Source: a virus. From it: a stretch of DNA of 20,457 bases. The position numbers and the translations under genes are program-made. Each line of letters begins with the position of its first letter. Position 1 is the stretch's first letter. Positions 7,919 through 19,991 of this stretch are shown here, one piece after another. Location of the stretch: IMG/VR virus record IMGVR_UViG_3300025840_000338, positions 1 through 20,457 of that record; one strand, written 5' to 3'. Under the pieces are notes generated by a model that worked only from the letters and a program-made list of their open reading frames with translations, was not told where the DNA came from and did no database searches.

Positions 7919-8123
7919 AGTATTACAGGAATATTTTAACGAATTAGTAATATTTGGTGATACAGCTTGTGAAAATCAAGAACAACAGATCCTTTTAGCA
8001 GGTGCCATGATGGCTGTAGCAAAAATGCTATACCATAACAACTTATCGGAACAAGAATACTTAAATATTATGAACCACAACGGAAGAGACTTGCTAAATC
8101 TGTTAAAACCCACTATACATTAA
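7893..8123 (+). CDS. Small hypothetical phage protein
   Basis: A 76-residue, mostly helical, slightly acidic protein. It starts inside the last 26 bases of the portal gene in another frame, so translation is probably coupled to portal; only a weak purine run (GAGTAAG) precedes the ATG. A central hydrophobic helix (ILLAGAMMAVAKMLYH, about residues 33-48) is interrupted by a Lys and a His and looks like a packing helix rather than a membrane span. I do not recognise a family. Its size and place right after portal would suit a small head-completion or portal-associated protein, but nothing in the sequence proves it. Confidence 0.6.
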   Translation: MIKNLTPTEVLQEYFNELVIFGDTACENQEQQILLAGAMMAVAKMLYHNNLSEQEYLNIMNHNGRDLLNLLKPTIH

Positions 8124-8133
8124 GGATAAAACT

Positions 8134-8541
8134 ATGAGTGTATCAATTAAAAAAAGTAAAAAAGAAGGAACTGGTCCCGTTGGATCAAATGTTATACCTA
8201 CTTTACCTAAAGATGTAAAAGAAATGTTGAGAGGCAAATCGTCTCTTGGACCATCCGTGATTTCAAAAATAAGAGATATGGTGGGAAGTAATAAAAGAGT
8301 AAATATTGATGATATAAGAAGATATTTAAAAGAAAAACAGGGTACAGGCGAAACTCCTAAACTTATGCCTGAACAAAATTTACCAGAAAGAAAAGTACCT
8401 AAAGGTGAAAAACCAAATATGCTTGATGTAGCTGGTGGTGCAAGAACTTTAAATGTAAAAAATGGGGGCTTAATAAAAAAGAAAAAACCTAAAAAGGCTG
8501 GTAGACTCGCAAAACGTGGTTATGGAGCTGCTAGAAAATAA
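8134..8541 (+). CDS. Small basic protein with C-terminal GGLIKKKK tail
   Basis: A 135-residue basic protein preceded by TAAGGA at 8121-8126. Residues 20-70 look helical (DVKEMLRG, IRDMVGSNKRVNIDDIRRYLKEKQ) and could be a small helical domain. The tail is a Lys-rich segment: GGLIKKKKPKKAG starts at residue 111, followed by RLAKRGYGAARK. This Gly-Gly-hydrophobic plus lysine pattern recurs in several other small genes of the window. The end overlaps the next start by one base. I recognise the tail style from marine phage genomes but no named family. A DNA- or RNA-binding or virion-internal role is a guess from charge alone. Confidence 0.6.
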   Translation: MSVSIKKSKKEGTGPVGSNVIPTLPKDVKEMLRGKSSLGPSVISKIRDMVGSNKRVNIDDIRRYLKEKQGTGETPKLMPEQNLPERKVPKGEKPNMLDVAGGARTLNVKNGGLIKKKKPKKAGRLAKRGYGAARK

Positions 8542-8855
8542 TGGGTAAATATAAAGATATAGACTTAACGAATAAGCAGAAAAAATTAGTTGCAGGAGAT
8601 TATGCTAATCTTCAATCAAATAAAAGTAAAGGGAACGTTATAAGTACAATTCGAACAATCGATATGGGTAAAATACTTGGTGCTTTTCCTTTTGTTAGTG
8701 GTTCAACTAGAACTAAAAATAATGCTAAAGGTGGCATGATGAAAAAGAAAAAGTTTCCTGATTTGAGTGGTGATGGTAAAGTCACTAAAAAGGATATTTT
8801 AATGGCTAGAGGAGTTATTAAAAAGAAAAAATCCAAAAAGAAGGCAAAAAAATGA
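8541..8855 (+). CDS. Small basic protein with EF-hand/dockerin-like loop
   Basis: A 104-residue protein whose ATG shares a base with the previous stop. It carries GGMMKKKK at residues 64-71, immediately followed by a 12-residue loop starting at D74 that fits the EF-hand/dockerin calcium loop: D74, S76, D78, G79, K80, V81, T82 and D85 fall at loop positions 1, 3, 5, 6, 7, 8, 9 and 12. The helix ILMARGVI follows, and the protein ends in a poly-Lys tail. Only one loop is present, whereas canonical EF-hands come in pairs. Calcium binding is therefore plausible but unproven. It sits between two other small basic genes in the same apparent operon. Function unknown. Confidence 0.6.
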   Translation: MGKYKDIDLTNKQKKLVAGDYANLQSNKSKGNVISTIRTIDMGKILGAFPFVSGSTRTKNNAKGGMMKKKKFPDLSGDGKVTKKDILMARGVIKKKKSKKKAKK

Positions 8856-9037
8856 AATTTAAAAATGCAAAAATGACTACTGTCGCTGCAAAAAACCCTT
8901 TTCCTAATATGAAAGTGGGTTCTGATGCTGCAATGACTTTCCCTGCTTTTGTGGTAAAAAACAACAAAGGTTCAGGACCAAAAGGTCAAACGAGCAACAT
9001 GCAAATTAAAAAAGTAGCATTTAAAGGCGTAAAATAG
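8852..9037 (+). CDS. Small basic hypothetical protein
   Basis: A 61-residue basic protein that overlaps the preceding gene by four bases (ATGA), a usual sign of coupled translation. It has no membrane segment and no cysteine. Its composition is rich in Lys, Asn, Gly and Phe, with segments such as NPFPNMKVGSDAAMTFPAF and a basic end (KKVAFKGVK). No family recognised. It closes the group of three small basic genes between portal and lysis modules; immediately after its stop comes a TATAAT hexamer and a strong ribosome site for the next gene, so it may be the last gene of a transcription or translation block. Confidence 0.5.
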   Translation: MKFKNAKMTTVAAKNPFPNMKVGSDAAMTFPAFVVKNNKGSGPKGQTSNMQIKKVAFKGVK

Positions 9038-9066
9038 TATAATCCTCAACTTAACAAGGAGGTAGT
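9038..9066 (+). promoter_or_regulatory. Candidate -10 box plus strong Shine-Dalgarno ahead of the lysis genes
   Basis: A perfect TATAAT lies at 9038-9043, directly after the previous stop. AAGGAGGT at 9056-9063, an almost full anti-16S match, lies 3 nt before the ATG at 9067. No good -35 hexamer is seen 16-18 nt upstream, and such hexamers occur by chance in AT-rich DNA, so the promoter half is weak. The ribosome site is solid and decides the start of the 44-residue gene. Confidence 0.3.
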
Positions 9067-9201
9067 ATGAATCTACTGAAAGATCTATGGGATCATTTGA
9101 AAGAATGGTCGGATTGGAAAATGAAGGATTGGATCAAGGCGGCTATTGTAGCTATCGTGGTCATCTGGGTAATTAGTTGGATGACAGGCGGAGCAGCATA
9201 G
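9067..9201 (+). CDS. 44-residue single-helix membrane protein, possible holin partner
   Basis: A very short gene supported by the best ribosome site of this region (AAGGAGGT, 3 nt spacing). The N-terminal 25 residues are amphipathic and Trp/Lys-rich (DLWDHLKEWSDWKMKDWIK). They are followed by one membrane helix, AAIVAIVVIWVISWM at about residues 26-40, and a short GGAA end. The stop TAG overlaps the GTG start of the three-helix holin, so the two are translationally coupled. Small membrane proteins placed beside a holin often act as antiholin, pinholin or holin partner; that is inference. I recall similar short Trp-rich proteins from marine phages, without a known function. Confidence 0.7.
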   Translation: MNLLKDLWDHLKEWSDWKMKDWIKAAIVAIVVIWVISWMTGGAA

Positions 9202-9614
9202 TGCTTAATCTTCTCGGTGGCTTACTTGGTGGCGGAAAAGGTGGAGCCTTAGAAACTATTTCAAAAGTTGTCGATGAACTTCATACGAGTGAGGAAGAAA
9301 AACTAGATAAAAAAATTCTAATGCAACGCTTACAACAAAAGCTTGCAGAAAAACAATTAGATGTTAATGCAAAGGAAGCCAGCCATCGCAGCGTATTCGT
9401 TGCTGGCTGGCGACCAGCTATAGGATGGTGCGGAGCCCTAGCTTTATTTTTCGCGTTCATCTTATCTCCCTGTATTGAATGGTATGCAAAATTCTCAGGT
9501 ATAGATATTGTACCACCTGCTATAGAAACTGGGCCTCTTCTAGCAATTGTCACTTCAATGCTCGGCGTATCTGGTCTTCGCACTTTTGAGAAGGCACGAG
9601 GATTAACTAAGTAA
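9201..9614 (+). CDS. Three-transmembrane holin (GTA_holin_3TM-like)
   Basis: I place the start at GTG 9201, which shares a base with the previous stop (TAGTG). From there the protein is 137 residues and opens with a Gly-rich segment (LLGGLLGGGKGG). The TTG at 9177 would lie inside the previous gene and adds an unlikely charged leader. A helical, charged segment at about 20-65 (KKILMQRLQQKLAEKQ) is followed by VAGWRPAIGWCGALALFFAF, the family's hallmark W-R-P-x-x-G-W entry to the first membrane helix. A second hydrophobic stretch includes PAIETGPLLAIVTSMLGVSGL and the end FEKARG. This matches the holin family of gene transfer agents and alphaproteobacterial phages. It would sit in the inner membrane and give the lysozyme access to peptidoglycan. 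Confidence 0.82.
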   Translation: MLNLLGGLLGGGKGGALETISKVVDELHTSEEEKLDKKILMQRLQQKLAEKQLDVNAKEASHRSVFVAGWRPAIGWCGALALFFAFILSPCIEWYAKFSGIDIVPPAIETGPLLAIVTSMLGVSGLRTFEKARGLTK

Positions 9615-10030
9615 TGAGTTGGAATTTTAATGAAATGTTAGACAAGTGTTGGATGACAGCACTTCAACATGAACCAGAGGCAAAACTCTATCAAGGGTTT
9701 GCTACAAAAGAAATGAAATTTGTAAATTCTGTTTTTAGAGGAAAAAATAATACTACTCTTTTAGTAGAGTGTAATGACGAAGGAGAATCACATTTACATG
9801 ATGTTGACAGTCCTTATATGGATGATTGTGTTATTCACCCACCTATAAAAATGTCACAAGAAGAGTCACTAAAAATATTAACAGAACATTTGGTAAATCC
9901 AGAGTGGTCAAATGTTGTTCTACGTAAACCTCTTGGACCAGAACCAATTAATACTTCTTATATTTATACATGTGTTACTGGTTATTGGGCCGTGGATACA
10001 GAAACAGGAGCCGTTACTAAATTTTCATGA
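9614..10030 (+). CDS. Hypothetical protein within the lysis cluster
   Basis: A 138-residue soluble-looking protein whose ATG shares a base with the holin stop (TAATG); GAGGA at 9598-9602 may serve as ribosome site. It has no signal peptide or membrane helix. It is acidic in the middle (DEGESHLHDVDSPYMDDCV) and ends overlapping the lysozyme start by four bases. Aromatic segments such as SYIYTCVTGYWAVDTETG suggest a beta-rich C-terminus. No family recognised. Its place between holin and lysozyme could mean a role in lysis timing, but unrelated genes often sit in such clusters. Confidence 0.6.
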   Translation: MSWNFNEMLDKCWMTALQHEPEAKLYQGFATKEMKFVNSVFRGKNNTTLLVECNDEGESHLHDVDSPYMDDCVIHPPIKMSQEESLKILTEHLVNPEWSNVVLRKPLGPEPINTSYIYTCVTGYWAVDTETGAVTKFS

Positions 10031-10467
10031 CATACGACGAATTAGCAGGTTCCGTAAAACTATCCGAAGGCTTCAGAGATCACGTGTACATAGACACGGA
10101 AGGATTTCGCACAATTGGGTGGGGTCATAAAGTAGTACATGAAGATAAGTTTGAAGATGGTAAAACATACACAAAAGAAGAATTACAAGAAGTATTTGAT
10201 AAAGATTTAAATAAAGCAATTGGTCAAGCAAGAATGTTGATGGAAGAACATGGTGTAACCGATTTGCCTATTTTAGCACAACACACCATTACCGAAATGG
10301 TATATCAACTTGGAAAATCAGGCGTGTCCAAGTTCCGTAACATGTGGAAATGCCTGCAGAACCGAGATTTTAACGGCGCGAGTTTAGAAATGTTAGACTC
10401 GAAATGGAATCGTCAAACTCCTAATCGTTGTAAAAAATTATCGGATCAAATGAAATCATGCGCATAG
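10027..10467 (+). CDS. T4-type lysozyme / endolysin (GH24)
   Basis: A 146-residue peptidoglycan hydrolase cleaving the MurNAc-GlcNAc bond. The catalytic triad is complete with the spacing of T4 lysozyme: E14 in LSEGF, D23 in YIDTEG and T29 in FRTIGWGH (E-x8-D-x5-T). The C-terminal signature KWNRQTPNRCKKL matches the Q-TPNRA-R segment of the family. Length is close to T4 lysozyme (164) and typical of single-domain phage endolysins. There is no signal peptide or anchor, so release into the periplasm should depend on the holin encoded upstream. The start overlaps the previous stop (ATGA) and the end overlaps the next gene by 10 bases. Confidence 0.92.
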   Translation: MTYDELAGSVKLSEGFRDHVYIDTEGFRTIGWGHKVVHEDKFEDGKTYTKEELQEVFDKDLNKAIGQARMLMEEHGVTDLPILAQHTITEMVYQLGKSGVSKFRNMWKCLQNRDFNGASLEMLDSKWNRQTPNRCKKLSDQMKSCA

Positions 10468-10652
10468 AAAATTTTTTTACTTATTATAAAAATCAATTAT
10501 TAAATAGACAAACAGCAGTAGAACAAGCTATATTGCAAGGCGTTTCAGATTGGAACGAATATAGGTATTTAACAGGTAAGTTACATGCCTTACAACAAGA
10601 AGTACAGGAACTCACGGACCTGCTAAAAAAACAGGAGCTAGACGATGACTAA
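10458..10652 (+). CDS. Small coiled-coil hypothetical protein
   Basis: A 64-residue protein starting 10 bases inside the lysozyme gene and ending 8 bases inside the GroES-like gene, so it is coupled on both sides. The N-terminal half is basic and aromatic (NFFTYYKNQLLNRQ). The segment WNEYRYLTGKLHALQQEVQE from about residue 33 begins a strong heptad-like helix continuing to a short acidic end (LDDD). I recall similar small proteins with a YRY-x-x-G motif in marine phages. No function is known to me. There is no membrane helix, so it is not an obvious spanin. Confidence 0.6.
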   Translation: MRIENFFTYYKNQLLNRQTAVEQAILQGVSDWNEYRYLTGKLHALQQEVQELTDLLKKQELDDD

Positions 10653-11058
10653 ACCAAAACTAATAGTCCCAAAACATGTTTGGGATGGCAAACAAGCAGA
10701 ACAAAAAAAACAAGAGCTAGAAAAGATTCCTGAACCAACAGGCTTTAGAATTGTTCTATTTCCTTTACGATTGCAAGGTAAAACAAAAGGAGGAGTTCTT
10801 CTTACTGATGACACAATTCAAGAGTCACAAATAACAACAAATATATGTAAAGTTTTAAAAGTAGGCCCTAGTGCTTACAAAGATAAAGAAAGGTTTCCTG
10901 ATGGTCCTTGGTGCAAGAAGGATGATTGGGTTTTAATTACTAGATATGCGGGATCTAGAATTAAAATAGATGGGGGCGAATTAAGGATTATTAATGACGA
11001 TGAAGTTCTGGCAGTTGTTGATGATCCAAGAGATATACTGCCAGCTAATATTTTATAA
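10645..11058 (+). CDS. GroES-like co-chaperonin (Cpn10)
   Basis: A 137-residue protein with a Cpn10 fold signature after a charged N-terminal extension of about 30 residues. The first strand is GFRIVLFPLRL (33-43). The mobile loop then reads KTKGGVLLTDDT (46-57), where V51-L52-L53 sits where GroES has the Ile-Val-Leu tripeptide that grips GroEL. The middle strand is ICKVLKVGP. The later strands are KKDDWVLITRYAG and the region EVLAVVDD. Host GroES is about 95 residues, so this version is enlarged at the N-terminus and in the KDKERFPDGPW insertion. It should cap host GroEL and help fold virion proteins, as T4 gp31 does; its place just before scaffold and capsid genes agrees. Ribosome site AGGAG is at 10632-10636. 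Confidence 0.85.
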   Translation: MTKPKLIVPKHVWDGKQAEQKKQELEKIPEPTGFRIVLFPLRLQGKTKGGVLLTDDTIQESQITTNICKVLKVGPSAYKDKERFPDGPWCKKDDWVLITRYAGSRIKIDGGELRIINDDEVLAVVDDPRDILPANIL

Positions 11059-11072
11059 ACATGGAGAACTCT

Positions 11073-12035
11073 ATGCAAAACGCAAGTGAAAAAATGGTTC
11101 CAATAGACACATCAGGTGATCCCGTTGAAGTGGAACTTAATGAAGATAAAAAAGAAGAGGGTGTTGAAGTTCAACAAGAAGAGCAAGAAACCAATAACCT
11201 TGTTGAAGAAACAGTAAAGCAAGAAGAGCCTAAAGAACTTTCACGTGAAAAGATTGAACCAGAAGTTCCTACCGATCCTTATGAAACAGGAGATCTTGAT
11301 AACTATAGTAAGGGAGTAAAGAAAAGAATTAACAATCTCGTAGGAAGAATGCGAGAAATGGAAAGACTTTATGAAACTACTCAAAAAGAAAATGAAGAGC
11401 TTAAAAAGAAATATAGTAGTGTGGGTAGAGGTTATGTATCAGAATTTGAAGGTAGAGTTACATCTTCAGTAGAAGCTGCTAAATCCAAACTTAAAAAAGC
11501 TATAGAAGATAATGACACGGAAGGACAAGTAGCTGCGCAAGAACAATTGGCGCAAGCAAAAGCAGACTCTGTGCGTTTAACTAATTTAAAAGCTAATCAA
11601 AAAAGAGATGAAGAAGCTCAAAAAGCTTTTCAACAACAAGCGCAAATGCCTCAACAAGAGCAACCTTATCAACCTGTCGATTATAAAGCAGAAGATTGGG
11701 CAGCAAAAAACACTTGGTTTGGATCAGATAAAGCTATGACTGCTACTGCAATGTCTTATCATGATGAATTACTGCAAGAAGGGTTTGACCCAACAAGCGA
11801 TGAGTATTATAATGAAATTAATTCTTATATAAGAAGCGAGTTTCCTCATAAGTTTAAAAAAGCTGAAGAGGAGAAACAACCCGAAACGAAACAGCCCGTT
11901 CAGACTGTTGCGTCGGCCGTACGAAAAACTAAATCTGGACGCCGAGTCGTGAAGCTCACACCTTCACAAGTTGCAATAGCTAAAAGACTTAATGTGCCAC
12001 TAGAAGAATACGCAAAACACGTGAAGGAGGCGTAA
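11073..12035 (+). CDS. Capsid scaffolding / assembly protein
   Basis: I choose the ATG at 11073 because GGAG at 11063-11066 lies a normal 6 nt before it; the ATG at 11061 overlaps that site. That gives 320 residues. The N-terminal 70 are very acidic and low in structure. Next comes a long helical region (NYSKGVKKRINNLVGRMREM, then more coiled coil). After it are a Gln-rich linker and a conserved-looking segment with WAAKNTWFGSDKAM and EINSYIRSEFPHKF. A basic C-terminal part ends in the helix LTPSQVAIAKRLNVPLEEY. This acidic-coil-basic layout, and the place before the capsid gene, fit scaffolding proteins. These drive shell assembly through a C-terminal helix and then leave or are degraded. 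No protease motif was seen. Confidence 0.8.
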   Translation: MQNASEKMVPIDTSGDPVEVELNEDKKEEGVEVQQEEQETNNLVEETVKQEEPKELSREKIEPEVPTDPYETGDLDNYSKGVKKRINNLVGRMREMERLYETTQKENEELKKKYSSVGRGYVSEFEGRVTSSVEAAKSKLKKAIEDNDTEGQVAAQEQLAQAKADSVRLTNLKANQKRDEEAQKAFQQQAQMPQQEQPYQPVDYKAEDWAAKNTWFGSDKAMTATAMSYHDELLQEGFDPTSDEYYNEINSYIRSEFPHKFKKAEEEKQPETKQPVQTVASAVRKTKSGRRVVKLTPSQVAIAKRLNVPLEEYAKHVKEA

Positions 12036-12503
12036 ATGACTGAAACTAAAATAAACAAAACCTCACGCAAATTGGAAACCCGTGAAAAGGATACTCGAAA
12101 GAGGGGATGGGTTCCCCCTTCGAATCTTGAAGCACCTGAACCACCTGAAGGTTATCACCATCGGTGGGTAAGAGCTGAATATCGTGGTATGCAAGATGAA
12201 AAAAACATCATCGGTAGACTACGAAGCGGATATGAATTTGTAAAATCAGATGAATATCCCGATAGAATGGATTTACCATCTATCGCTGACGGCAAATATA
12301 AAGGTGTAATAGGGATAGGTGGATTATTACTAATGCGTTGTCCTGTTGAAGTTAAAGAAGACAGAAATTCTTATTTCAGAAACTTAACGGATTCAAAGAC
12401 ACAGGCAGTAGAAAATGATCTCCATAAAGAAGAGCATCCAGCTATGCCAATCCATCAGGAAAGGCAAAGCAGAGTAACATTTGGAGGCAATAAGAAATCT
12501 TAA
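12036..12503 (+). CDS. Conserved hypothetical protein of the head module
   Basis: A 155-residue protein with a strong ribosome site, AAGGAGG, at 12024-12030. The N-terminus is basic and extended. The middle has HHRWVRAEYRGMQDEKNI, then GRLRSGYEFVKSDEYPD, then YKGVIGIGGLLLMRCPVEV, which looks like a small alpha/beta core. The tail is polar. I recognise this pattern as a conserved gene between scaffold and capsid genes in many marine phages, but know no assigned function. A minor head or assembly role is inferred only from position. Confidence 0.7.
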   Translation: MTETKINKTSRKLETREKDTRKRGWVPPSNLEAPEPPEGYHHRWVRAEYRGMQDEKNIIGRLRSGYEFVKSDEYPDRMDLPSIADGKYKGVIGIGGLLLMRCPVEVKEDRNSYFRNLTDSKTQAVENDLHKEEHPAMPIHQERQSRVTFGGNKKS

Positions 12504-12546
12504 TGAGTAAGATCATTTATGTCTCTGAAAAATTTAGGAGACTACT

Positions 12547-13131
12547 ATGGCTAACATAGATCAAGCTTTCGGTTTAAGACCGATAGCTAAAGTTGGTTCT
12601 GCCCCTGGTGGAACAACTGGTACGACTAAATACTCTATTACAAGTGGCGCAAGCGCAATATTTACAGGAGACCCCGTTAAGCCAAAGGCTGACGGATCAA
12701 TTGAGGTAGCAACGGCTGGCGACCCTATTAGAGGTATTTTTTTAGGATGTTTCTACACAGATCCATCCACAGGCAAACCTAGATATAACAACACTTTCCC
12801 CGACGGTACGGTGGCAAGTGATGCTATAGCTTTTGTTGCTGATGATCCTGACCAATTATATATTGCTCAGCAAGATTCAGTTGGAAGCAATCTAGTAGCA
12901 GCTGACTTAAACCAAAACTGTGATCTAGTTTTTGGTGCTGGTTCTACCACTTCGGGTATTTCTGGTGTAGAAATTGATTCAAGTTCTAAAAATACTACTG
13001 CAGCACTTCAGGTGAAGTTGATTGATTTTTATGACACACCGAGTAATGACGCTACGGCTAATAACTCTGTTCTTGTTATAAAACTTAACAACTCTGATAT
13101 GAACGGTGGTACTGGAACTGCAGGCGTATAG
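12547..13131 (+). CDS. Head decoration-like structural protein
   Basis: A 194-residue protein, predicted beta-rich and high in Gly, Thr, Asp and Ser, with ribosome site AGGAG at 12536-12540. The N-terminus (NIDQAFGLRPIAKVG) and the segments FTGDPVK, DQLYIAQQDS and VFGAGSTTSGISGVEIDSSS are of the kind I recall just before the major capsid gene in marine phages. It has no membrane segment or signal peptide. A role as capsid decoration or stabilising protein is inferred from its beta-rich composition and the capsid gene starting 9 bases downstream. It could also be a minor capsid protein. Confidence 0.68.
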   Translation: MANIDQAFGLRPIAKVGSAPGGTTGTTKYSITSGASAIFTGDPVKPKADGSIEVATAGDPIRGIFLGCFYTDPSTGKPRYNNTFPDGTVASDAIAFVADDPDQLYIAQQDSVGSNLVAADLNQNCDLVFGAGSTTSGISGVEIDSSSKNTTAALQVKLIDFYDTPSNDATANNSVLVIKLNNSDMNGGTGTAGV

Positions 13132-13140
13132 GAGTAGATT

Positions 13141-14043
13141 ATGGCGATTAATAGAGCGCAACTCGCGAAAGAGCTAGAACCTGGCCTTAACGCCTTGTTC
13201 GGTATGGAGTATTCTCGTTATGAAAACGAGCATGCTGAGATTTTTGACCAAGAAACAAGTGACAGAGCTTTTGAAGAAGAAGTAATGTTAGTTGGCTTCG
13301 GTGAAGCTGCAGTCAAGCAGGAAGGTTCTGCTGTACAATTTGATACAGCTCAAGAATCTTTCACTGCTAGATATTCTCATGAAACTGTTGCATTAGCATT
13401 CAGTTTGACTGAGGAAGCAGTCGAAGACAACTTGTACGATACTTTATCGGCTCGTTACACAAAATCTTTGGCACGTTCAATGGCATACACAAAGCAACAA
13501 AAAGCAGCGAACATTTTAAATAATGCATTCACAACTGCTGGTGGTGATGGTGTTTCATTAGTAAACACAGCACACCCAACTGCTTTAGGTGGCACATTCT
13601 CAAACAGAAGTGCAACTGATGCTGACTTGAACGAAACCTCATTAGAGCAAGCGATGATCGACATTGCAGGCTTTATCGACGAAAGAGGGCTAAAAGTTGC
13701 AATGCAAGGTAGAAAACTAATTCTTCCTGTAAACATTCAATTTGTAGCTGATAGAATTTTAAATTCTACTCTAAGAGTTGGTACTGCTGATAATGACATC
13801 AACGCACTTAGAAACATGGGTATGCTACCTGATGGATACGTGGTTAACCACTACCTATCAGATACTGATGCATACTTCATCAAAACTGATGCTCCTAATG
13901 GATTCAAACACTTCGTAAGAGCTGCCCTTGCTACTGGCATGGAAGGTGATTTCGATACAGGAAACATGAGATATAAAGCACGTGAAAGATACAGCTTTGG
14001 TTTCTCAGATCCTAGATGTGTATACGGATCTCAAGGTTCATAA
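13141..14043 (+). CDS. Major capsid protein (HK97-fold, Mu gpT-like)
   Basis: A 300-residue protein, the likely building block of the icosahedral shell. Features of the Mu gpT-like branch of HK97-fold capsid proteins are visible. These are an N-terminal helix (QLAKELEPGLNALFG), an extended-loop region around YSHETVALAFSLTEEAVED, the tandem SLARSMAYTKQQKAANILNN spine helix, and the C-terminal strands KARERYSFGFSDPRCVYG. Length suits a coat protein without a fused protease or scaffold. GGAG at 13131-13134 serves as ribosome site. A strong terminator follows 29 bases after the stop, as expected for the most abundantly expressed gene. Confidence 0.9.
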   Translation: MAINRAQLAKELEPGLNALFGMEYSRYENEHAEIFDQETSDRAFEEEVMLVGFGEAAVKQEGSAVQFDTAQESFTARYSHETVALAFSLTEEAVEDNLYDTLSARYTKSLARSMAYTKQQKAANILNNAFTTAGGDGVSLVNTAHPTALGGTFSNRSATDADLNETSLEQAMIDIAGFIDERGLKVAMQGRKLILPVNIQFVADRILNSTLRVGTADNDINALRNMGMLPDGYVVNHYLSDTDAYFIKTDAPNGFKHFVRAALATGMEGDFDTGNMRYKARERYSFGFSDPRCVYGSQGS

Positions 14044-14071
14044 GAATTAACTAAATCTTTCTTAGGTGAAG

Positions 14072-14097
14072 AAGGCGCTTGTAAGAGCGCCTTTTTT
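14072..14097 (+). terminator. Rho-independent terminator after the capsid gene
   Basis: Inverted repeat AAGGCGCT (14072-14079) and AGCGCCTT (14086-14093) with a 6-nt loop gives an 8-bp stem, GC-rich in its centre. A run of six T at 14092-14097 overlaps its base. It is the only clear intrinsic terminator I found in the window. Confidence 0.9.
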
Positions 14098-14198
14098 ATT
14101 TTATAACTTATGTACCTAGATTAATTAAGTTGTGTAGACTGACTAGGCAGACGGTATAGAGACTACATGACGAGGGCTATACACCATAGGAGGTTATT
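14098..14198 (+). promoter_or_regulatory. Intergenic leader, possible promoter for the downstream virion genes
   Basis: No gene lies in this stretch after the terminator. A new promoter would be expected here to express the next block, but I see only weak candidates. TATAGA at 14155-14160 has TTGTGT 19 nt upstream, and TATACA at 14180-14185 has no good -35. AGGAGGT at 14188-14194 is a strong ribosome site with 4 nt spacing to the ATG at 14199. The promoter claim is low confidence; the ribosome site is clear. Confidence 0.3.
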
Positions 14199-14720
14199 AT
14201 GGCACAAACGACTTTTCAAGGGCCAGTTAAATCAATTAACGGTTTCATAGGAGCAGGTGTTGGAAACGTAGTAAGCTTAACAGCGGATACAACTCTAACA
14301 GTTGCAGACCACGCAGGTCGAATTTTAACGTGTAATGATGCAGACGGCAAATTTACTTTACCAACGATTGACGCTACAGCTGATGCTAACGGCACAGGAC
14401 CAGGCAACGATCCAAACAACACTAACAACGTAGGCGCTACTTTTACTTTTATTGTAGAAACAGCAGCTACTGATATGGACGTGTTAACTGATGGTACCGA
14501 TAAATTTGTTGGTGGTGCTTACATTGGTATTGATGATTCAGCAGCAGGTAAAACTTTTATCTCTGGTGCAACTAACGATGTTATTACACTAAACGGAACA
14601 ACAAAAGGTGGACTTGCAGGTAGTATTATTAAATGTACTGCAATGGCTGATAATAAATATCATGTCGAAGCACAGTTATTAGGTTCAGGAACTCTAGTAA
14701 CTCCATTTGCGGATGCGTAA
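14199..14720 (+). CDS. Beta-rich virion structural protein
   Basis: A 173-residue protein rich in Thr, Gly, Ala and Asp, with strong ribosome site AGGAGGT. It begins with TTFQGPVKSINGFIGAG and alternates short hydrophobic strands with Gly/Asp turns (VSLTADTTLTVADHAGRIL, NDVITLNGTTKGGLAGSI), typical of beta-sandwich virion proteins. I recall this N-terminus from marine phages in the block after the capsid gene. The exact role (decoration, head fibre or tail part) cannot be told from sequence. It has no signal peptide. The next ATG shares a base with its stop. Confidence 0.65.
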   Translation: MAQTTFQGPVKSINGFIGAGVGNVVSLTADTTLTVADHAGRILTCNDADGKFTLPTIDATADANGTGPGNDPNNTNNVGATFTFIVETAATDMDVLTDGTDKFVGGAYIGIDDSAAGKTFISGATNDVITLNGTTKGGLAGSIIKCTAMADNKYHVEAQLLGSGTLVTPFADA

Positions 14721-15034
14721 TGTTCGGTCTTAAAAATAAAGAACTAACTTCGAGCGGACAAGTTACGACTAAAGTCTCTGCGGGCACTAACACTCTTAGT
14801 GCCCCCGCTAGAGTTCTACAGTTAAGCATTAGATGCGGTACAACTTTAGGAAGAGTGGATCTAAGAGATAACGGTTCAGGTGGAACTGTTAAATACACAG
14901 TTCCTACTCCTGCAATCGGCGCTGGTGAAGATGAAGTAATGACGATTAGTTTTCCAGATTTAGGTATTAAATTTGATACAGATCTTTACGTTTTCTTTAA
15001 CCAAGCAACGCACGTAGAAGTTTTGTACGCATAA
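14720..15034 (+). CDS. Small beta-rich virion protein
   Basis: A 104-residue protein translationally coupled to its upstream neighbour (TAATG). Predicted strands alternate with Gly/Asn turns: VLQLSIRCGTTLGRVDLRDN, GTVKYTVP, DEVMTISFPDLGIKF, and DLYVFFNQATHVEVLYA. The compact all-beta look and the location between two other beta-rich genes suggest a virion component. I recall similar short proteins next to comparable genes in marine phages but no assigned function. It has no membrane helix or signal peptide. Confidence 0.6.
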   Translation: MFGLKNKELTSSGQVTTKVSAGTNTLSAPARVLQLSIRCGTTLGRVDLRDNGSGGTVKYTVPTPAIGAGEDEVMTISFPDLGIKFDTDLYVFFNQATHVEVLYA

Positions 15035-15035
15035 G

Positions 15036-15833
15036 ATGGCTAGGCTTGTCACATCAATTTCTAAATTAGGATCCTCTGAGCCATTTGAACTTCAGGTGGC
15101 TCAGGGACAAATCGCTTATCACAAACATATTTACAAGTTTGGACAAAATTCAGTCGTTGGAAATAGTGTAGAAACTATCTGGCAACAAGGTGGTTTATAT
15201 TCTTATCCACCAAGTGCAACTACAATGACGGTATCTAGTTCTAATACAAATGATACATCAGCAGGAACAGGTGCAAGAACAGTTTTAATTTCTGGATTGG
15301 ACGGAGATTATAATGAAATATCTGAAACTATAACACTAAATGGTCAAACAGCTGTTACTACTACTAATTCATTTTTACGAGTAAACAGAGCAATAGTTTT
15401 AACCGCAGGAAGTGGCGGGGCAAACGCAGGAACTATTTATGTAGGAACAGGAACAGTGACTACAGGTGTACCTGCCAATGTTTATACAACAATTAATGGA
15501 GATGGCACAAACCAAAGTCTTCAAGCATTTTGGACAGTACCCGCAAACTATAACGCTTATATTCATCAAACAAATATCTCAACAGGAAATAGTTCAAATA
15601 CTCCCGCTGTTTTAAAAACTTTGTTAGTGGCAAGACCACATGGTGGAGTATTTAACACAAAAGAAGTAATTGTATTAACAGATGGCAATCATCTACAGAA
15701 CTATAGTTTTCCCATTACATTAACAGAAAAAACAGATATTGAATTTAGAGCAGAGTCAAGTTCAGGATCTGTAAGCTTTAATGTGTCTGCGTCTATGAAT
15801 ATTTTATATGTTAGAATGGGAAGCAGTTTATAA
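15036..15833 (+). CDS. Virion structural protein of the marine phage FG-nDT-GTGAR type
   Basis: A 265-residue, mostly beta protein. It shows a run I know from virion structural proteins of marine myo- and podophages: IYKFGQNSVV near 32-41, ETIWQQGGLYSYP, then SSSNTNDTSAGTGARTVLI, then GLDGDYNEISETITLNGQ, and FLRVNRAIVLTAGSGGANAG. The C-terminal half has further strands (FNTKEVIVLTDGNHLQNYSF, DIEFRAESSSG). In other phages such proteins are found in the virion; a tail, fibre or head-surface role is inference. The start lies one base after the previous stop with little ribosome site, so it probably depends on reinitiation. The end shares a base with the next ATG. Confidence 0.7.
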   Translation: MARLVTSISKLGSSEPFELQVAQGQIAYHKHIYKFGQNSVVGNSVETIWQQGGLYSYPPSATTMTVSSSNTNDTSAGTGARTVLISGLDGDYNEISETITLNGQTAVTTTNSFLRVNRAIVLTAGSGGANAGTIYVGTGTVTTGVPANVYTTINGDGTNQSLQAFWTVPANYNAYIHQTNISTGNSSNTPAVLKTLLVARPHGGVFNTKEVIVLTDGNHLQNYSFPITLTEKTDIEFRAESSSGSVSFNVSASMNILYVRMGSSL

Positions 15834-16108
15834 TGGCTGATAAGCAACCACGTAGAAATAAAAAGAATTTCCGCCCTACTGAAAAGGGGGCGGGAATGAC
15901 TAAAGCTGGGGTAAAGAAATATAGAGCAATGAACCCTGGTTCTAAATTAAAAACAGCAGTTACAGGTAAAGTTAAAAAAGGATCTAAAGCTGCTAAAAGA
16001 AGAAAATCATATTGTGCAAGAAGTGCAGGTCAAATGAAACAATTTCCAAAGGCTGCTGCTAATCCAAATTCAAGATTACGACAGGCTAGGAGACGTTGGA
16101 AGTGTTGA
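15833..16108 (+). CDS. Small basic phage protein, DUF6321-like
   Basis: A 91-residue strongly basic protein. The order GMTKAGVKKYRAMNPGSKLK, then KAAKRRKSYCARSAGQMK with C61, and the final RRRWKC with C91 match the small phage family I know as DUF6321 (AG-x-KKY, RRKS[FY]CAR, R-W-K-C). Function of the family is unknown. The two cysteines could bind metal or form a crosslink. It begins the second group of small basic genes, coupled to the structural gene upstream through TAATG, and the next reading frame overlaps its end. Role in DNA binding or inside the capsid is only suggested by charge. Confidence 0.75.
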   Translation: MADKQPRRNKKNFRPTEKGAGMTKAGVKKYRAMNPGSKLKTAVTGKVKKGSKAAKRRKSYCARSAGQMKQFPKAAANPNSRLRQARRRWKC

Positions 16109-16641
16109 GAGTTTTATTAATATTATCAATTTTATTATTTTCACAAAAAATTTATGGAGAAACGAACACCGTGTCTTCGACGGTGGTGACAAATTCGACA
16201 CCGCCAACTGCTTCGGCGCCAAGTGTTGTTGTAAACAATTCTGATATTTGTAAAGTAGCAACGTCAGGCGCCATACAAACAAATATACTTGGTTTGGCTA
16301 CAGGCGTTGTAGTGGACGATGAGCTGTGTCAATTGCTCAAGCTCAGTAGGCAGATGTATGCTGCAGGCCTAAAAGTTGCGGCGGTGAGTATATTAGCACA
16401 AGACTCAAGGGTGTTTGACAGTTTAGTGATGGCAGGAACACCACCTCCGTACATGGGTTCTATTGGCAGTGAAGCTTTAGAGAAATGGAAATCAAATCCA
16501 CATATGATACCAGAAGGTAGCATGGTATTTAAAGATGATGTTTTAAAAATTAATATAAATGAGGATGTAGATGATGGCGAATTCAAAAAGTTTTTATTTT
16601 TGGCTATGGCTATGTATATCGGTCTCCCTATCCTTTTCTAG
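16102..16641 (+). CDS. Exported hypothetical protein with signal peptide and C-terminal hydrophobic end
   Basis: The start is ambiguous. GTG 16102 lies 9 nt after AGGAG at 16088-16092 and gives 179 residues; TTG 16096 and TTG 16105 are alternatives. The protein opens with a signal peptide (LRVLLILSILLFSQKIYG, likely cut before ETN). A Ser/Thr/Pro/Val linker follows (SSTVVTNSTPPTASAPSVVV), then a helical core with two cysteines (NNSDICKVATSGAIQ, DDELCQLLKLSRQMYAAGLK, RVFDSLVMAGTPPPYMG). It ends in a hydrophobic helix FLFLAMAMYIGLPILF. I recall the core from marine cyanophage and other ocean phage proteins of unknown function. The last 71 bases overlap the next gene. Export by the host is likely, but the target compartment and role are unknown. 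Confidence 0.65.
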   Translation: MLRVLLILSILLFSQKIYGETNTVSSTVVTNSTPPTASAPSVVVNNSDICKVATSGAIQTNILGLATGVVVDDELCQLLKLSRQMYAAGLKVAAVSILAQDSRVFDSLVMAGTPPPYMGSIGSEALEKWKSNPHMIPEGSMVFKDDVLKININEDVDDGEFKKFLFLAMAMYIGLPILF

Positions 16642-18148
16642 TAAAGCACAAGTAGATTGCTCCACAACAACTGTCGGTTTATGTGACGAGGTTGTTGATC
16701 AAGTTATTATTGAAACAGTAACTGAAACAATTGAAATGAAACCCGATGGTATTCTAACTACCACAACCACCGAAAAAGATATTACAACCACCACCGTCGA
16801 AAACAAAGATAGTGGTGATATTCTTGATAGTGACAACGGATATGTAGCGACTTCGAAGGACGGTTCAATGGGCTCAGACTGGGGTGGCCAAGGTCCCGCT
16901 AGTATGCCTACAGGAACTTATTGTGGTGATTTAGGAACTGATAGATGCGCTGAAATTACAGGGTCTGATAATAATACAAGCGCTATGGGTGTTGAAGGAA
17001 TGGGAACCACCTTTATACAAACAGTTGATGTATCTGAACTCGATATAAAATATGGAGGTAGAACTAACTATTCTATCAAAGTTGATAAGCAAGATGCTCA
17101 AGATAGAATATATATGCATATTACAGGAAGAGACGGAACTACTGAGGTATTTAGTGGTACTGATATTTTATCGGAGTCGGGTGTTAATAGTGGTTATCAA
17201 GTATACGAAAGTGGCTTTGATTTTTCAGGCACCATTACAAATTTAATTATAGAGGTAGGCGGACGTGATGTGAATTTAGCCGTGGGCCCAGTTTTTGATG
17301 ACGTAAGCATTCGTGTGTTATACAACACTATTTCTACAATAGTACAACAAACGATTACATCTGTAGAAATGTGGGTTGCTTACGGTGGTAGTACCGAAAC
17401 AGAAGTTATAGATATTGTAGAAGATTTTTTTGATCATAATGATTTTGTAGAAAAACCAGGTGGTGAAATAGATATACAACCAATTGAAGAACCAGATACA
17501 GAAGTTTCTTACGAAATGGTTGAAATGGAAATGGAAATAGAAATGCCTGTCATGGAGGTAGAAATACCAGAGATGGAAATGGAAATGCCAGAAATAGAAG
17601 TGGCGAGTGTTGAGACAGAGATAGAAGCAGAGATGGAAATGGAAATGGAGATGCCTGAACCAGAGGTAAATGAGCCAGATCCACAACCAGAGGAGGTACA
17701 AAATGAACCTACTGAAGAAGATACTACAGAGCCTGAACCTGAAACGCAGGAGGAGCCTAAGCAGGAAGAAAGCGCACCAGAGGCTACTGAAAATGAAACT
17801 AAAGAAGTTGAGGTTGAGGAAGTAGAAGAAAAAGAAGAACCTAAAGAAGAGCCTAAACAAGAGGAAAGTAAAAAAGAAGTGGCGGCGAAAAAAATATTAG
17901 AGAAGATGGGTGATAAAGGTAGATATGATTCAGCAAATCAGTTAAAAACATTAATTGTGATGCAAGTATTAGGTAATTCAAAATCATTCTTTGATTCACA
18001 AAAACAACTGAATGATATTGAAGGATTTTTTACAGATCAGTTTATTCCTGATGCTGAACTTACAACAAACAATATAGCACAATATTTCTTGTTTGCAGGA
18101 AGTGATGGGCTAATGAACGAAATGGTAATGCAACAGTGGCAGAATTAG
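16571..18148 (+). CDS. Exported protein with beta-sandwich-like domain, Glu-Met repeat and conserved C-terminus
   Basis: A 525-residue protein starting inside the previous gene, with GAGG at 16561-16564 as ribosome site. It has a signal peptide (FYFWLWLCISVSLSFSSKA) and a Thr-rich linker. A predicted beta domain follows at about 150-252, ending in GPVFDDVSIRVLY, a pattern like galactose-binding/CBM beta-sandwiches. A Glu-Met low-complexity tract at about 314-362 uses repeats such as EMEMEIEMP, and an acidic Pro/Glu/Lys linker runs to about 436. The C-terminal domain at 437-525 (GDKGRYDSANQLKTLIVMQV, YFLFAGSDGLMNEMV) resembles segments I recall from other marine phages. The Met repeat is encoded by a GAAATG-type hexamer tract. 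Carbohydrate binding and surface location are inference; no lipobox is seen. Confidence 0.65.
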   Translation: MMANSKSFYFWLWLCISVSLSFSSKAQVDCSTTTVGLCDEVVDQVIIETVTETIEMKPDGILTTTTTEKDITTTTVENKDSGDILDSDNGYVATSKDGSMGSDWGGQGPASMPTGTYCGDLGTDRCAEITGSDNNTSAMGVEGMGTTFIQTVDVSELDIKYGGRTNYSIKVDKQDAQDRIYMHITGRDGTTEVFSGTDILSESGVNSGYQVYESGFDFSGTITNLIIEVGGRDVNLAVGPVFDDVSIRVLYNTISTIVQQTITSVEMWVAYGGSTETEVIDIVEDFFDHNDFVEKPGGEIDIQPIEEPDTEVSYEMVEMEMEIEMPVMEVEIPEMEMEMPEIEVASVETEIEAEMEMEMEMPEPEVNEPDPQPEEVQNEPTEEDTTEPEPETQEEPKQEESAPEATENETKEVEVEEVEEKEEPKEEPKQEESKKEVAAKKILEKMGDKGRYDSANQLKTLIVMQVLGNSKSFFDSQKQLNDIEGFFTDQFIPDAELTTNNIAQYFLFAGSDGLMNEMVMQQWQN

Positions 18149-18651
18149 AATTTGCGGGTTTAAAGTTTAAAGGCGGAAAGATAGTCGTTGTCTTAACAGC
18201 ACTAGGTACATTGCTTGGTGGTGCGTGGGGCGCGTTTGAATTTTATAAGGATTATCTAACGATGAAAGATACCATATCTCAATATGTCAGCCCTGACCTT
18301 TCAGGCTTTGATAAACGTATAGATTTAGTACAACAAGAAGTAGAAATGCTACAGAGTGAAATGAGTATGATTCTAGAAGAAGTTGGATTAGTGGCAGATG
18401 TAGCTAAAGAATTAAAAAACGATTTAAAAGGTGATGTGAGACGTATTGAAACAATTGTTGAGGATGTAGAGACAAGAGTAAAAGAAGATTCTAGATCAAA
18501 TGAAAAAGACTTAAAATTAACGGTGGATGGTATTGAGTCTGATATGCAAAAATTAGAAAATGAGCTAAATGAAGCTATGACAGAATTACAAGAAAGCATT
18601 GATAAACAAATTAAGCTAACTCTCGCTAATCCTTTATCTCAAATGAAGTAA
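18136..18651 (+). CDS. Membrane-anchored coiled-coil protein
   Basis: A 171-residue protein starting at GTG 18136, overlapping the end of the previous gene by 13 bases. A short N-terminus with FAGLKFKGGK leads into one membrane helix (VVVLTALGTLLGGAWGAFEF, about residues 18-37). A long charged coiled coil then runs to the end (DLVQQEVEMLQSEMSMILEE, LKLTVDGIESDMQKLENELN). This resembles i-spanin topology, with an N-terminal anchor and a coiled coil in the periplasm, but it lies far from the lysis genes and is not paired with an obvious lipoprotein. A virion or infected-membrane role is also possible. I recall similar proteins in marine phages without function. Confidence 0.65.
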   Translation: MAELEFAGLKFKGGKIVVVLTALGTLLGGAWGAFEFYKDYLTMKDTISQYVSPDLSGFDKRIDLVQQEVEMLQSEMSMILEEVGLVADVAKELKNDLKGDVRRIETIVEDVETRVKEDSRSNEKDLKLTVDGIESDMQKLENELNEAMTELQESIDKQIKLTLANPLSQMK

Positions 18652-18791
18652 TGGTAGCTAAACTCCCAAATAACCAATACTTTACACCTATTAAAAAAAG
18701 AACTAGTATAGGTAATTCTTCACGCAGTAGGCCGAAGAATAAAAACAAAAGACGTCAACACGTTAAATATAGAGGTCAAGGTCATGGGTAA
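18651..18791 (+). CDS. 46-residue basic phage protein
   Basis: A tiny gene coupled to the previous one (TAATG) and overlapping the next by 8 bases. It reads LPNNQYFTPIKKRTSIGNSS and then a run of Arg/Lys/Asn (SRPKNKNKRRQHVKYRGQG). I recognise the pattern F-TPIKK-TSIG and the KKYRGQG-like end from short proteins of marine phages, which argues that it is a real gene despite its size. It has no cysteine, membrane helix or known function. The charge suggests nucleic-acid contact. Confidence 0.6.
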   Translation: MVAKLPNNQYFTPIKKRTSIGNSSRSRPKNKNKRRQHVKYRGQGHG

Positions 18792-19053
18792 ATTATGTGC
18801 TAGAGGAAAAGCTGCAGCTAAAAGAAAATTTAAAGTTTACCCTTCTGCTTATGCAAACATGTATGCAAGTGCTGTGTGTTCTGGAAAAGTAACACCAGGC
18901 GGTAAAAAGAAACCAAAGAAAAAAGCTAATGGAGGAATGATTAATAAAATTTCTCAACAACGAAAAAAGGTATCCAACTATAATCAAGGAGGCATTGCTA
19001 AAGGTTGTGGTGGTATTATGGAAAATAAACGTAAAGTAACCGCAGTAACATAA
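18784..19053 (+). CDS. Small basic Cys-containing phage protein (CARGKAAAKRK type)
   Basis: An 89-residue basic protein with AAGGT at 18778-18782 as likely ribosome site. The N-terminal half, KLCARGKAAAKRKFKVYPSA with C5 and AYANMYASAVCSGKV with C32, is strongly conserved in my memory of marine and cyanobacterial phage proteins. The C-terminal half carries ANGGMINK at 48-55 and GGIAKGCGGIMENKRKV from 69 with C75. It therefore contains two copies of the Gly-Gly-hydrophobic motif seen elsewhere in the window. Function unknown; virion or nucleoprotein role is a guess. Confidence 0.7.
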   Translation: MGKLCARGKAAAKRKFKVYPSAYANMYASAVCSGKVTPGGKKKPKKKANGGMINKISQQRKKVSNYNQGGIAKGCGGIMENKRKVTAVT

Positions 19054-19311
19054 ATGTCCTTACGAAAGTGGGTAAAAGAAAAATGGGTAGATATAGGTGC
19101 TCCCAAAAAGAATGGTAAGTATCAACCTTGTGGTAGATCTAAAGGCAGTAAAAGAAAATATCCAAAATGTGTTCCTATAGCAAAAGCTAAAAGCATGACA
19201 GCAGGACAGAAGAAATCTGCTGTTGCTAGAAAAAGAGCTGCAGGCAATACAGGACCTAAACCAAAGAATGTCGCAACATTTACAAAAAGAAATAAAAAAA
19301 GACGTACGTAA
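19054..19311 (+). CDS. Small basic phage protein, DUF5872-like
   Basis: An 85-residue protein that begins directly after the previous stop. The order SLRKWVKEKWVDIGAPKKNG, then QPCGRSKGSKRKYPKCVPIA with C26 and C39, then KSMTAGQKKSAVARKRAAG matches what I know as DUF5872, a small basic family of phages and giant viruses with unknown function. The two cysteines are 13 positions apart. The next gene starts inside its last 44 bases in another frame. Confidence 0.78.
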   Translation: MSLRKWVKEKWVDIGAPKKNGKYQPCGRSKGSKRKYPKCVPIAKAKSMTAGQKKSAVARKRAAGNTGPKPKNVATFTKRNKKRRT

Positions 19312-19852
19312 GTGGTCTGAACACTTTCTTGAGATACCTAATAAACATTTAGGTGGTTTTCCCGCATGTCCTTTTGCAAAGAAAACATGGCAGAATAATA
19401 AAGTTATTATTGAAGTAAAGAGAAAGAACAAATGGTATAAAACACAACTTAACGCTCAATTAAAACAATTAGATTTTCATATCCATGAGATATTGATATT
19501 TTGTGATCCATACTTTAATTATTCTCTAGAGGAATTTCAGGATATTATTGATGCATACAATGATTGGTATAATGAAAAGGATATATTTTTTATGGGTTTT
19601 CATCCCCTCAATCCAGCCAATGAAGAAGAACAAGAGTTTCTGGTTACTCCAAATGGGGAGACCCCACTTGTAGAGAGTGATCTTATGTATTCTATGATGT
19701 TGATACAAAAGTTCTCGCAATTACAGGAAGCTTCTGATAAACTACATCGTCAAGGTTACTATAAGAAGTGGCCAAAAGGGTATTATAAAGACGTCGTAGT
19801 ATCTAGACAAAAAACCTTTAAACGAATATTCGGAGGTCGATATGATGGGTAA
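19268..19852 (+). CDS. Conserved hypothetical phage protein (WSE-LEIPNKHLGG-PACPFA type)
   Basis: I place the start at ATG 19268 (194 residues); upstream codons of the same frame read as a shadow of the DUF5872-like gene. The N-terminus has KWSEHFLEIPNKHLGGFPAC followed by PFAKKTW. The middle has FHIHEILIFCDPYFNYSLEE, DWYNEKDIFFMGFHPLNPAN and EEEQEFLV. The end has SMMLIQKFSQLQEASDKLHR followed by QGYYKKWPKGYYKDVV. Mixed alpha/beta composition with many conserved-looking aromatic residues suggests a globular, perhaps enzymatic, protein. I recall this family in marine phages without a known function, usually next to small basic genes as here. The end overlaps the next gene by 11 bases. Confidence 0.7.
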   Translation: MSQHLQKEIKKDVRKWSEHFLEIPNKHLGGFPACPFAKKTWQNNKVIIEVKRKNKWYKTQLNAQLKQLDFHIHEILIFCDPYFNYSLEEFQDIIDAYNDWYNEKDIFFMGFHPLNPANEEEQEFLVTPNGETPLVESDLMYSMMLIQKFSQLQEASDKLHRQGYYKKWPKGYYKDVVVSRQKTFKRIFGGRYDG

Positions 19853-19991
19853 GAAAAAATCAGTTCCAATGAAACGAGGTGGCGTTGCTAAAAAACGTGG
19901 CGGTGGCATGATGATGGAAATGAAACGTGGCGGTAAAGTCATGAAGGGTAAAAAGAAAAAAGTAATGAAGAAAAAAGGCAAGAAAAAATAG
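19842..19991 (+). CDS. 49-residue Lys/Gly/Met-rich basic protein
   Basis: A tiny gene with an excellent ribosome site, GGAGGT at 19832-19837, before ATG 19842 (or 19845). About 45% of the residues are Lys or Arg, with three Gly-Gly-hydrophobic units: KRGGVAKK, RGGGMMMEMK and RGGKVMKGKKKK. It is the purest example of the motif shared by other small genes here. It is likely real because of the ribosome site and the perfect fit between two genes (11-base overlap on the left, next ATG directly after its stop). Function unknown. Confidence 0.62.
   Translation: MMGKKKSVPMKRGGVAKKRGGGMMMEMKRGGKVMKGKKKKVMKKKGKKK

Follow-up and report, generated by a model that had tools for sequence, protein, structure and literature searches.

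The question raised by this locus is whether a short Gly-Gly-hydrophobic string, recurring in otherwise dissimilar proteins, marks them all for one common handler. The window, by which is meant the whole 20,457-base stretch analysed here (positions 1 to 20,457 of IMG/VR virus record IMGVR_UViG_3300025840_000338), is the head and packaging region of a marine phage. A preliminary description of it had noted such strings beside lysines in a set of small basic proteins, and also in a protein of 1358 residues, and had suggested a virion-targeting or processing system. Each of the eight listed strings was located in its named gene; seven lie in genes between 8134 and 19842, within the interval 8134-19991 given for the set, and QGGLVEP (3441-3461) lies outside it. 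The observation is thus partly confirmed and its interpretation partly supported: the idea of a virion-targeting or processing signal is not supported as one system for all strings, but was a sensible lead, since the QGGLVEP site leads to a conserved C-terminal tag carried, in related phages, by the first open reading frame (ORF) after the gene for the terminase large subunit (terL). This tag, which is peripheral to the original finding, is the most valuable outcome of the analysis.

The Gly-Gly junction and the C-terminal tag beside terL

The anchor gene of the locus is terL (49-1440, plus strand; PHROG 38, E 1.4e-111), directly after which the tagged ORF of relatives is found. In the window it is followed by the gene for the 1358-residue protein (1440-5516, plus strand) and then by the portal gene (5525-7918, plus strand; PHROG 1216, E 2.9e-53), whose product is about 52% identical to that of Pelagibacter phage HTVC023P and 46% identical to that of freshwater phage DSL-LC04. 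Comparison of the 1358-residue protein with 16 full-length homologs gave identities of 13-27% up to residue ~650 and, from there on, mostly of 42-78%. QGGLVEP (residues 668-674; 3441-3461, plus strand) stands at this border, and in 16/16 homologs the Gly-Gly falls exactly between the variable N-terminal and the conserved C-terminal halves, mostly followed by x-V, in a stretch predicted to be disordered (pLDDT, the predicted local distance difference test score, about 31). The C-terminal half matches a stand-alone ORF of another phage group (E about 1e-71 to 1e-73). In the split version, seen in loci L037, L039 and L040, the first ORF ends ...GGLLNIEE[MV]LNSD (in L037, ...LKNGGLLNIEEMLNSD), and the ORF homologous to the C-terminal half starts two bases downstream. 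Because the split first ORFs end there, the Gly-Gly is the end of the N-terminal module in fused and split genes alike, and QGGLVEP is probably the counterpart of the C-terminal tag on the separate first ORF of relatives.

Among these relatives the first ORF between terL and portal ends ASGGIAKMLGE, KSGGLAGILEV, ASGGLPHILGV, YARGGLATMFTRRR or in a similar way, and the second is usually untagged; the consensus of the endings is [A/S]GG[LI][AP]x[IM]LG[V/E] at the carboxyl terminus. Conservation of the tag was assessed in loci newly retrieved by terL only, with HTVC027P-like, L197-like and DSL-LC04-like queries, the first two of which came from phages known to be tagged, so that the test concerns conservation across divergent bodies and not random occurrence. 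With the HTVC027P-like terL, 60/62 distinct first ORFs carried the tag in its original pattern, and 62/62 once serine was allowed at one position, against an expectation of 2.2 of 62 (maximum 9 in 300 shuffles). The Gly-Gly was always nine residues from the end, the residues after it being [LI], [APS], x, [IV], L, G and [VLA]; among other ORFs the pattern occurred in only 2/386. With the L197-like terL, 49/62 first ORFs of at least 100 residues were tagged (1.7 expected), with the consensus ASGG[LI]A[RY]MLGE. The strict tag was almost confined to the first ORF after terL (73/85 in all loci collected up to that survey). The tagged large proteins matched nothing above cut-off in Pfam or PHROG, and no description of the tag was found in the literature searched, a partial search.

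Third codon positions are free to vary at the Gly-Gly, Leu/Ile and Ala/Pro of the tag in the HTVC027P and L197 lineages, and the constraint therefore acts mainly on the protein. The peptide is short, C-terminal and conserved on divergent proteins: median identity between tagged proteins is 25% in the bodies, which is near background, as against 67% in the nine-residue tails, and 77% of pairs have no BLAST match. With the tails removed, a set of about 14-17 tagged proteins gives no hits among its members, a few of which may be chance pattern matches, and single linkage chains 135/140 of the tagged ORFs, for which reason a description of them as unrelated families was withdrawn. As judged from these comparisons, the tagged first-ORF product is a protein whose body is a mosaic and whose tail is fixed.

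Other endings and repeats were noted in the collected loci. L050 has three similar tags in two proteins (1977-2960 and 7270-8658; GGIADHFRSR, GGIANHFRKKF and GGLANLFRVKNQY), possibly reflecting a common partner in that genome. A second type of C-terminal ending, resembling SGPxPxSGPxxxGLxxLxxRV (for example RSGPAPQSGPTPQGLQGLFNRVKKI), is present in L094 (3689-5995), L115 (113-2065) and L197 (4193-6481). Large proteins of the terL-portal interval in L094 (1084-3609) and L115 (113-2065) contain repeated GGRVG[LF] strings and, in mid-protein, an internal twin-arginine-like stretch, e.g. AGGMTRRAFLKLMGGVAAGIGAVKSG.

Gly-Gly strings of the small basic proteins

The motif [NKRQC]GG[MLIV] occurs 11 times in the window against 2.0 expected (per-protein shuffles, of which 0/2000 reach 11). 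Four of these 11 matches had not been listed before, namely those in the GroES mobile loop, in the genes at 14199 and 15036, and at residue 16 of the 1358-residue protein. Since the motif was picked after seeing the data, the reversed motif [MLIV]GG[NKRQC] was used as a control, giving 1 match against 2.0 expected in the window, and other sequences were tested. Among 1010 non-redundant proteins from related IMG/VR loci, retrieved with the portal and a single small protein as queries, the forward motif was found 122 times against 45.8 expected (z 12.9); for the reversed motif the count was 48 against 48.5. With the forward motif raised and the reversed one at expectation, the excess is real and directional, pure composition is ruled out as its cause, and the motif is, as the preliminary description implied, more than a matter of Lys/Gly content. 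The excess is sharpest for GG[MLIV][AVMLI] within the last 30 residues (28.3 families against 4.8 +/- 2.2; reversed form, 7.2 against 4.8); among other ORFs of the newly retrieved loci the family-level C-terminal count was 1.8 against 0.8 +/- 0.9, too small to decide. No genome-wide excess was found in HTVC023P, HTVC027P, 023Pt, CRP-901, DSL-LC04, HTVC106P, HTVC203P, HTVC010P, P-SCSP2 or T7, nor in the pooled structural module (50 against 41); an eleventh genome scanned, C72C1, gave z 2.7. A genome-wide property of marine phages is ruled out by the ten genomes and the pooled module.

Alignments of homologs show that Gly-Gly plus a hydrophobic residue is kept at 3/8 sites, QGGLVEP, GGLIKKKK and QGGIAKG; the remaining strings are non-conserved or of low complexity. 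GGLIKKKK belongs to a small basic protein (8134-8541, plus strand; 21 homologs aligned) that combines a swapped N-terminal part with a conserved basic tail, GGLIKKKKPKKAGRLAKRGYGAARK (8464-8538, plus strand). Its Gly-Gly is present in 21/21 and is followed by a hydrophobic residue, R-A-RG-G-A is invariant, and the homologs keep the tail GG[LM][IMV]...AGRLAKRGYGAARK while their N-terminal parts are exchanged; third codon positions at the Gly-Gly vary. QGGIAKG lies in a second small basic protein (18784-19053, plus strand; 27-40 homologs), made up of an N-terminal domain (residues 1-40), a variable linker and the conserved tail GG[IV]AKGCGxVMxxRRKVT, in which at least 38/40 have the Gly-Gly, I/V comes next and A follows in 40/40. 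Of the two other strings in this protein, NGGMINK sits in the variable linker and is missing in some homologs, and CGGIMENK is not conserved, the kept string being AKGCGxVM with the second glycine replaced elsewhere by A, N, D or K. For this family AlphaFold predicts two helices in residues 1-40 and a pLDDT of about 50 from residue 41 on, which places all three strings in the largely disordered remainder; the match to PHROG 27331 spans residues 1-47 only.

GGMMKKKK (8730-8753), in the small basic protein encoded at 8541-8855 (plus strand), is not conserved, other homologs having GGSP or GGSV. The conserved part of that protein is an EF-hand-like segment, FPDLSGDGKVTKKDILMARGVI, at about 8754-8819, which matches Pfam Dockerin_1 below cut-off (E 0.012). 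This segment, GDGKVT(K/Q)KDIL(M/I)(A/G)RGVI in the window, has an end, TQKDILIGRGVI, that is also seen just before the C-terminal tag of first ORFs in other phages, e.g. L354 (2451-3092). KRGGVAKK and RGGGMMMEMK, in a 49-residue Lys/Gly/Met-rich protein of low complexity (19842-19991, plus strand), could not be judged because it has only four homologs. The GroES co-chaperonin gene (10645-11058, plus strand) is a genuine Cpn10 member (38.4 bits against a Pfam cut-off of 21.1), and its KTKGGVLL (about 10780-10803), in which KTKGG and the following hydrophobic residues are truly present, is an ordinary mobile loop, a defined chaperonin element unlike the tags and tails and separate from them.

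The proposal of one short motif and a common handler is therefore not supported: the strings fall into several classes, with about half of the sites unconserved and the GroES loop a look-alike. The stretches that follow the Gly-Gly from protein to protein resemble each other no more within genomes than between them (mean BLOSUM -1.3 within against -0.7 between, p = 0.92), so a shared motif is not supported, and this lack of likeness together with the unconserved sites rules out a single motif in all listed proteins. GGLIKKKK and QGGIAKG open another class, a disordered Lys/Gly-rich C-terminal tail (hA[KR]GxG) on small late proteins, for which binding to DNA or to the head is the more plausible role. 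In an IMG/VR scan the corresponding DNA pattern, GG-h-A-x-[KR]-G-x-G, gave 39 stretches against 52 for a codon-reversed control. The two differ only in location: many of the forward matches lie in small basic proteins at a distance of 12-20 residues from the C-terminus, and because they share this placement the basic tail occurs beyond close relatives. Alternatively, the strings of the small basic proteins would for the most part be tails rich in Lys and Gly, disordered and of low complexity, that serve to bind DNA or RNA, and their Gly-Gly-hydrophobic look would be a by-product. The disorder predicted by AlphaFold, the presence in several homologs of GGS, of GGR or of no such string in place of Gly-Gly, and a within-genome likeness not beyond that of paralogous tails would fit this explanation, but the excess is directional and C-terminal, and Gly-Gly plus hydrophobic is invariant in the tail at 8134 and nearly so in that at 18784; the explanation as a whole is considered rather unlikely.

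Possible roles of the terL-adjacent tag

On fast-changing proteins at one locus, a flexible Gly-Gly that leads into a conserved hydrophobic C-terminus suggests docking or loading, and the tag is tentatively favoured here, from sequence comparison, as a docking or virion-loading tag. The Gly-Gly would act as a flexible hinge, and the short hydrophobic peptide beyond it would attach to a single partner in the head during assembly, the candidates being the portal, the scaffold, a capsid protein or whatever the next ORF encodes. The variable, effector-like proteins that bear the tag would in this way enter the virion and be injected with the DNA. QGGLVEP marks the border at which a swappable N-terminal module meets the conserved C-terminal module of a terL-adjacent, polyvalent-like protein, two genes having presumably fused in the lineage of the window and left a tag remnant at the junction. 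In marine short-tailed phages more widely, the tag may even be a general loading signal by which rapidly swapped post-terL effectors would travel in the virion to SAR11 and other hosts and be injected there, with the cargo in some lineages fused to its carrier at the tag; this wider proposal is possible but doubtful.

Several observations weigh against a docking or loading tag. With the DSL-LC04-like terL only 11/39 matched, most freshwater ones being negative, and three of the 11 matches are due to chance and lie in a small membrane protein. The status of the junction Gly-Gly as a tag relic is itself inferred. The ending GGA-GTT-TAA of the HTVC027P group is conserved as DNA too, so that the final Gly-Val cannot be credited to protein function alone, and GGAGTTTAA holds a Shine-Dalgarno-like AGGAG just upstream of the likely TTG start of the next ORF. 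The latter objection is weaker in the L197 group, since the Gly codon varies there (1.35 bits). A DNA-level cause, the Shine-Dalgarno sequence of the next gene, was rejected: it covers part of the last two or three residues in one lineage and not GG[LI][AP]xIL.

Known systems offer partial parallels. The cargo-loading peptides of encapsulins resemble the tag in being short and C-terminal, on a flexible linker, with hydrophobic residues around a glycine hinge and with varied cargo (PMC7925596), and encapsulin shells are described as resembling HK97-type phage capsids (PMC8229669). The peptides differ from the tag in sequence, and the tag is on phage proteins beside terL. The capsid targeting sequence of the internal proteins of T4 is likewise a short conserved signal on divergent, partly basic carriers, which the phage uses to load varied proteins (PMC9026906); it is N-terminal and is processed by gp21, the prohead protease, whereas the tag differs from such a signal in standing at the C-terminus and is not known to be processed. 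Polyvalent proteins of phages and conjugative elements are, like the 1358-residue protein, large and modular, with swappable modules and a portal/terminase context, and for those of phages packaging and injection are expected (PMC5512222). The 1358-residue protein, encoded between terL and portal, has their multi-domain, modular organisation, with its N-terminal half variable and its C-terminal half conserved, but it had no Pfam match above cut-off, and no named polyvalent domain was detected in that way. Its C-terminal half had no convincing match in the PDB; the model of this half gave weak structural matches to phage proteins, one of them annotated as large polyvalent protein-associated (E 0.08).

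The proteases of adenovirus and African swine fever virus cut at GG-X sites in basic core proteins and polyproteins, and these sites share Gly-Gly plus the next residue with the strings described here. The Gly-Gly might similarly be a processing site, at or beside which a phage or host protease cuts, splitting the N- and C-terminal modules and trimming the tails of late proteins. Its position at the module border in 16/16 homologs, within a predicted disordered linker and where split phages have a protein end, is in keeping with cleavage, and both peptidases and autoproteolysis are known among polyvalent proteins (PMC5512222). However, the residues after the Gly-Gly are conserved to the C-terminus in the split version, as those of a discarded leaving peptide would not need to be, and no protease domain was recognised in the C-terminal half by Pfam or structural comparison, the coverage of which is weak. 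Nor did Pfam or PHROG recognise a cysteine protease of the GG-X type among the window proteins scanned, or structural comparison in the model of the C-terminal half, no dedicated search having been made. Processing, which might apply to the fused protein and fits the conserved residues less well, is regarded as unlikely.

The tag could also dock the first-ORF product in the infected cell, to terminase, the next-ORF product or a host factor, and have no part in virion loading. The strict genetic linkage of the tag to terL and the following ORF would be expected of such docking, but packaging is predicted for the polyvalent proteins that portal-terminase phages encode (PMC5512222), which is an indirect argument, and purely intracellular docking is given little credence. 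Recruitment of GroEL by a string mimicking the GroES mobile loop is very improbable: the phage GroES KTKGGVLL fits the same pattern, but the match is short, the first hydrophobic residue of the tag is followed by [AP]xIL where the loop has a run of three hydrophobics, and lysines follow the sites in the small proteins.

Neighbouring genes and significance

A run of small genes lies between portal and GroES in the window, the major head protein is encoded at 13141-14043, and further structural genes lie beyond. Two small basic proteins (15833-16108 and 19054-19311) match Pfam DUF6321 above and DUF5872 below cut-off, and proteins of this kind are very common across marine phage contigs. The product of 16571-18148 is a 525-residue protein with a signal-peptide-like N-terminus and a long acidic Glu/Met/Val repeat region.

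The initial Gly-Gly finding has become a set of real motifs separated from their look-alikes, and even if the tag is not a loading signal it is a strongly conserved element beside terL. If the tag does prove to be a loading signal, it would provide a portable peptide for placing foreign proteins in phage heads, and the injected effectors of some of the most abundant phages in the ocean, the genes for which are now nearly all annotated as hypothetical, would become recognisable by sequence alone.

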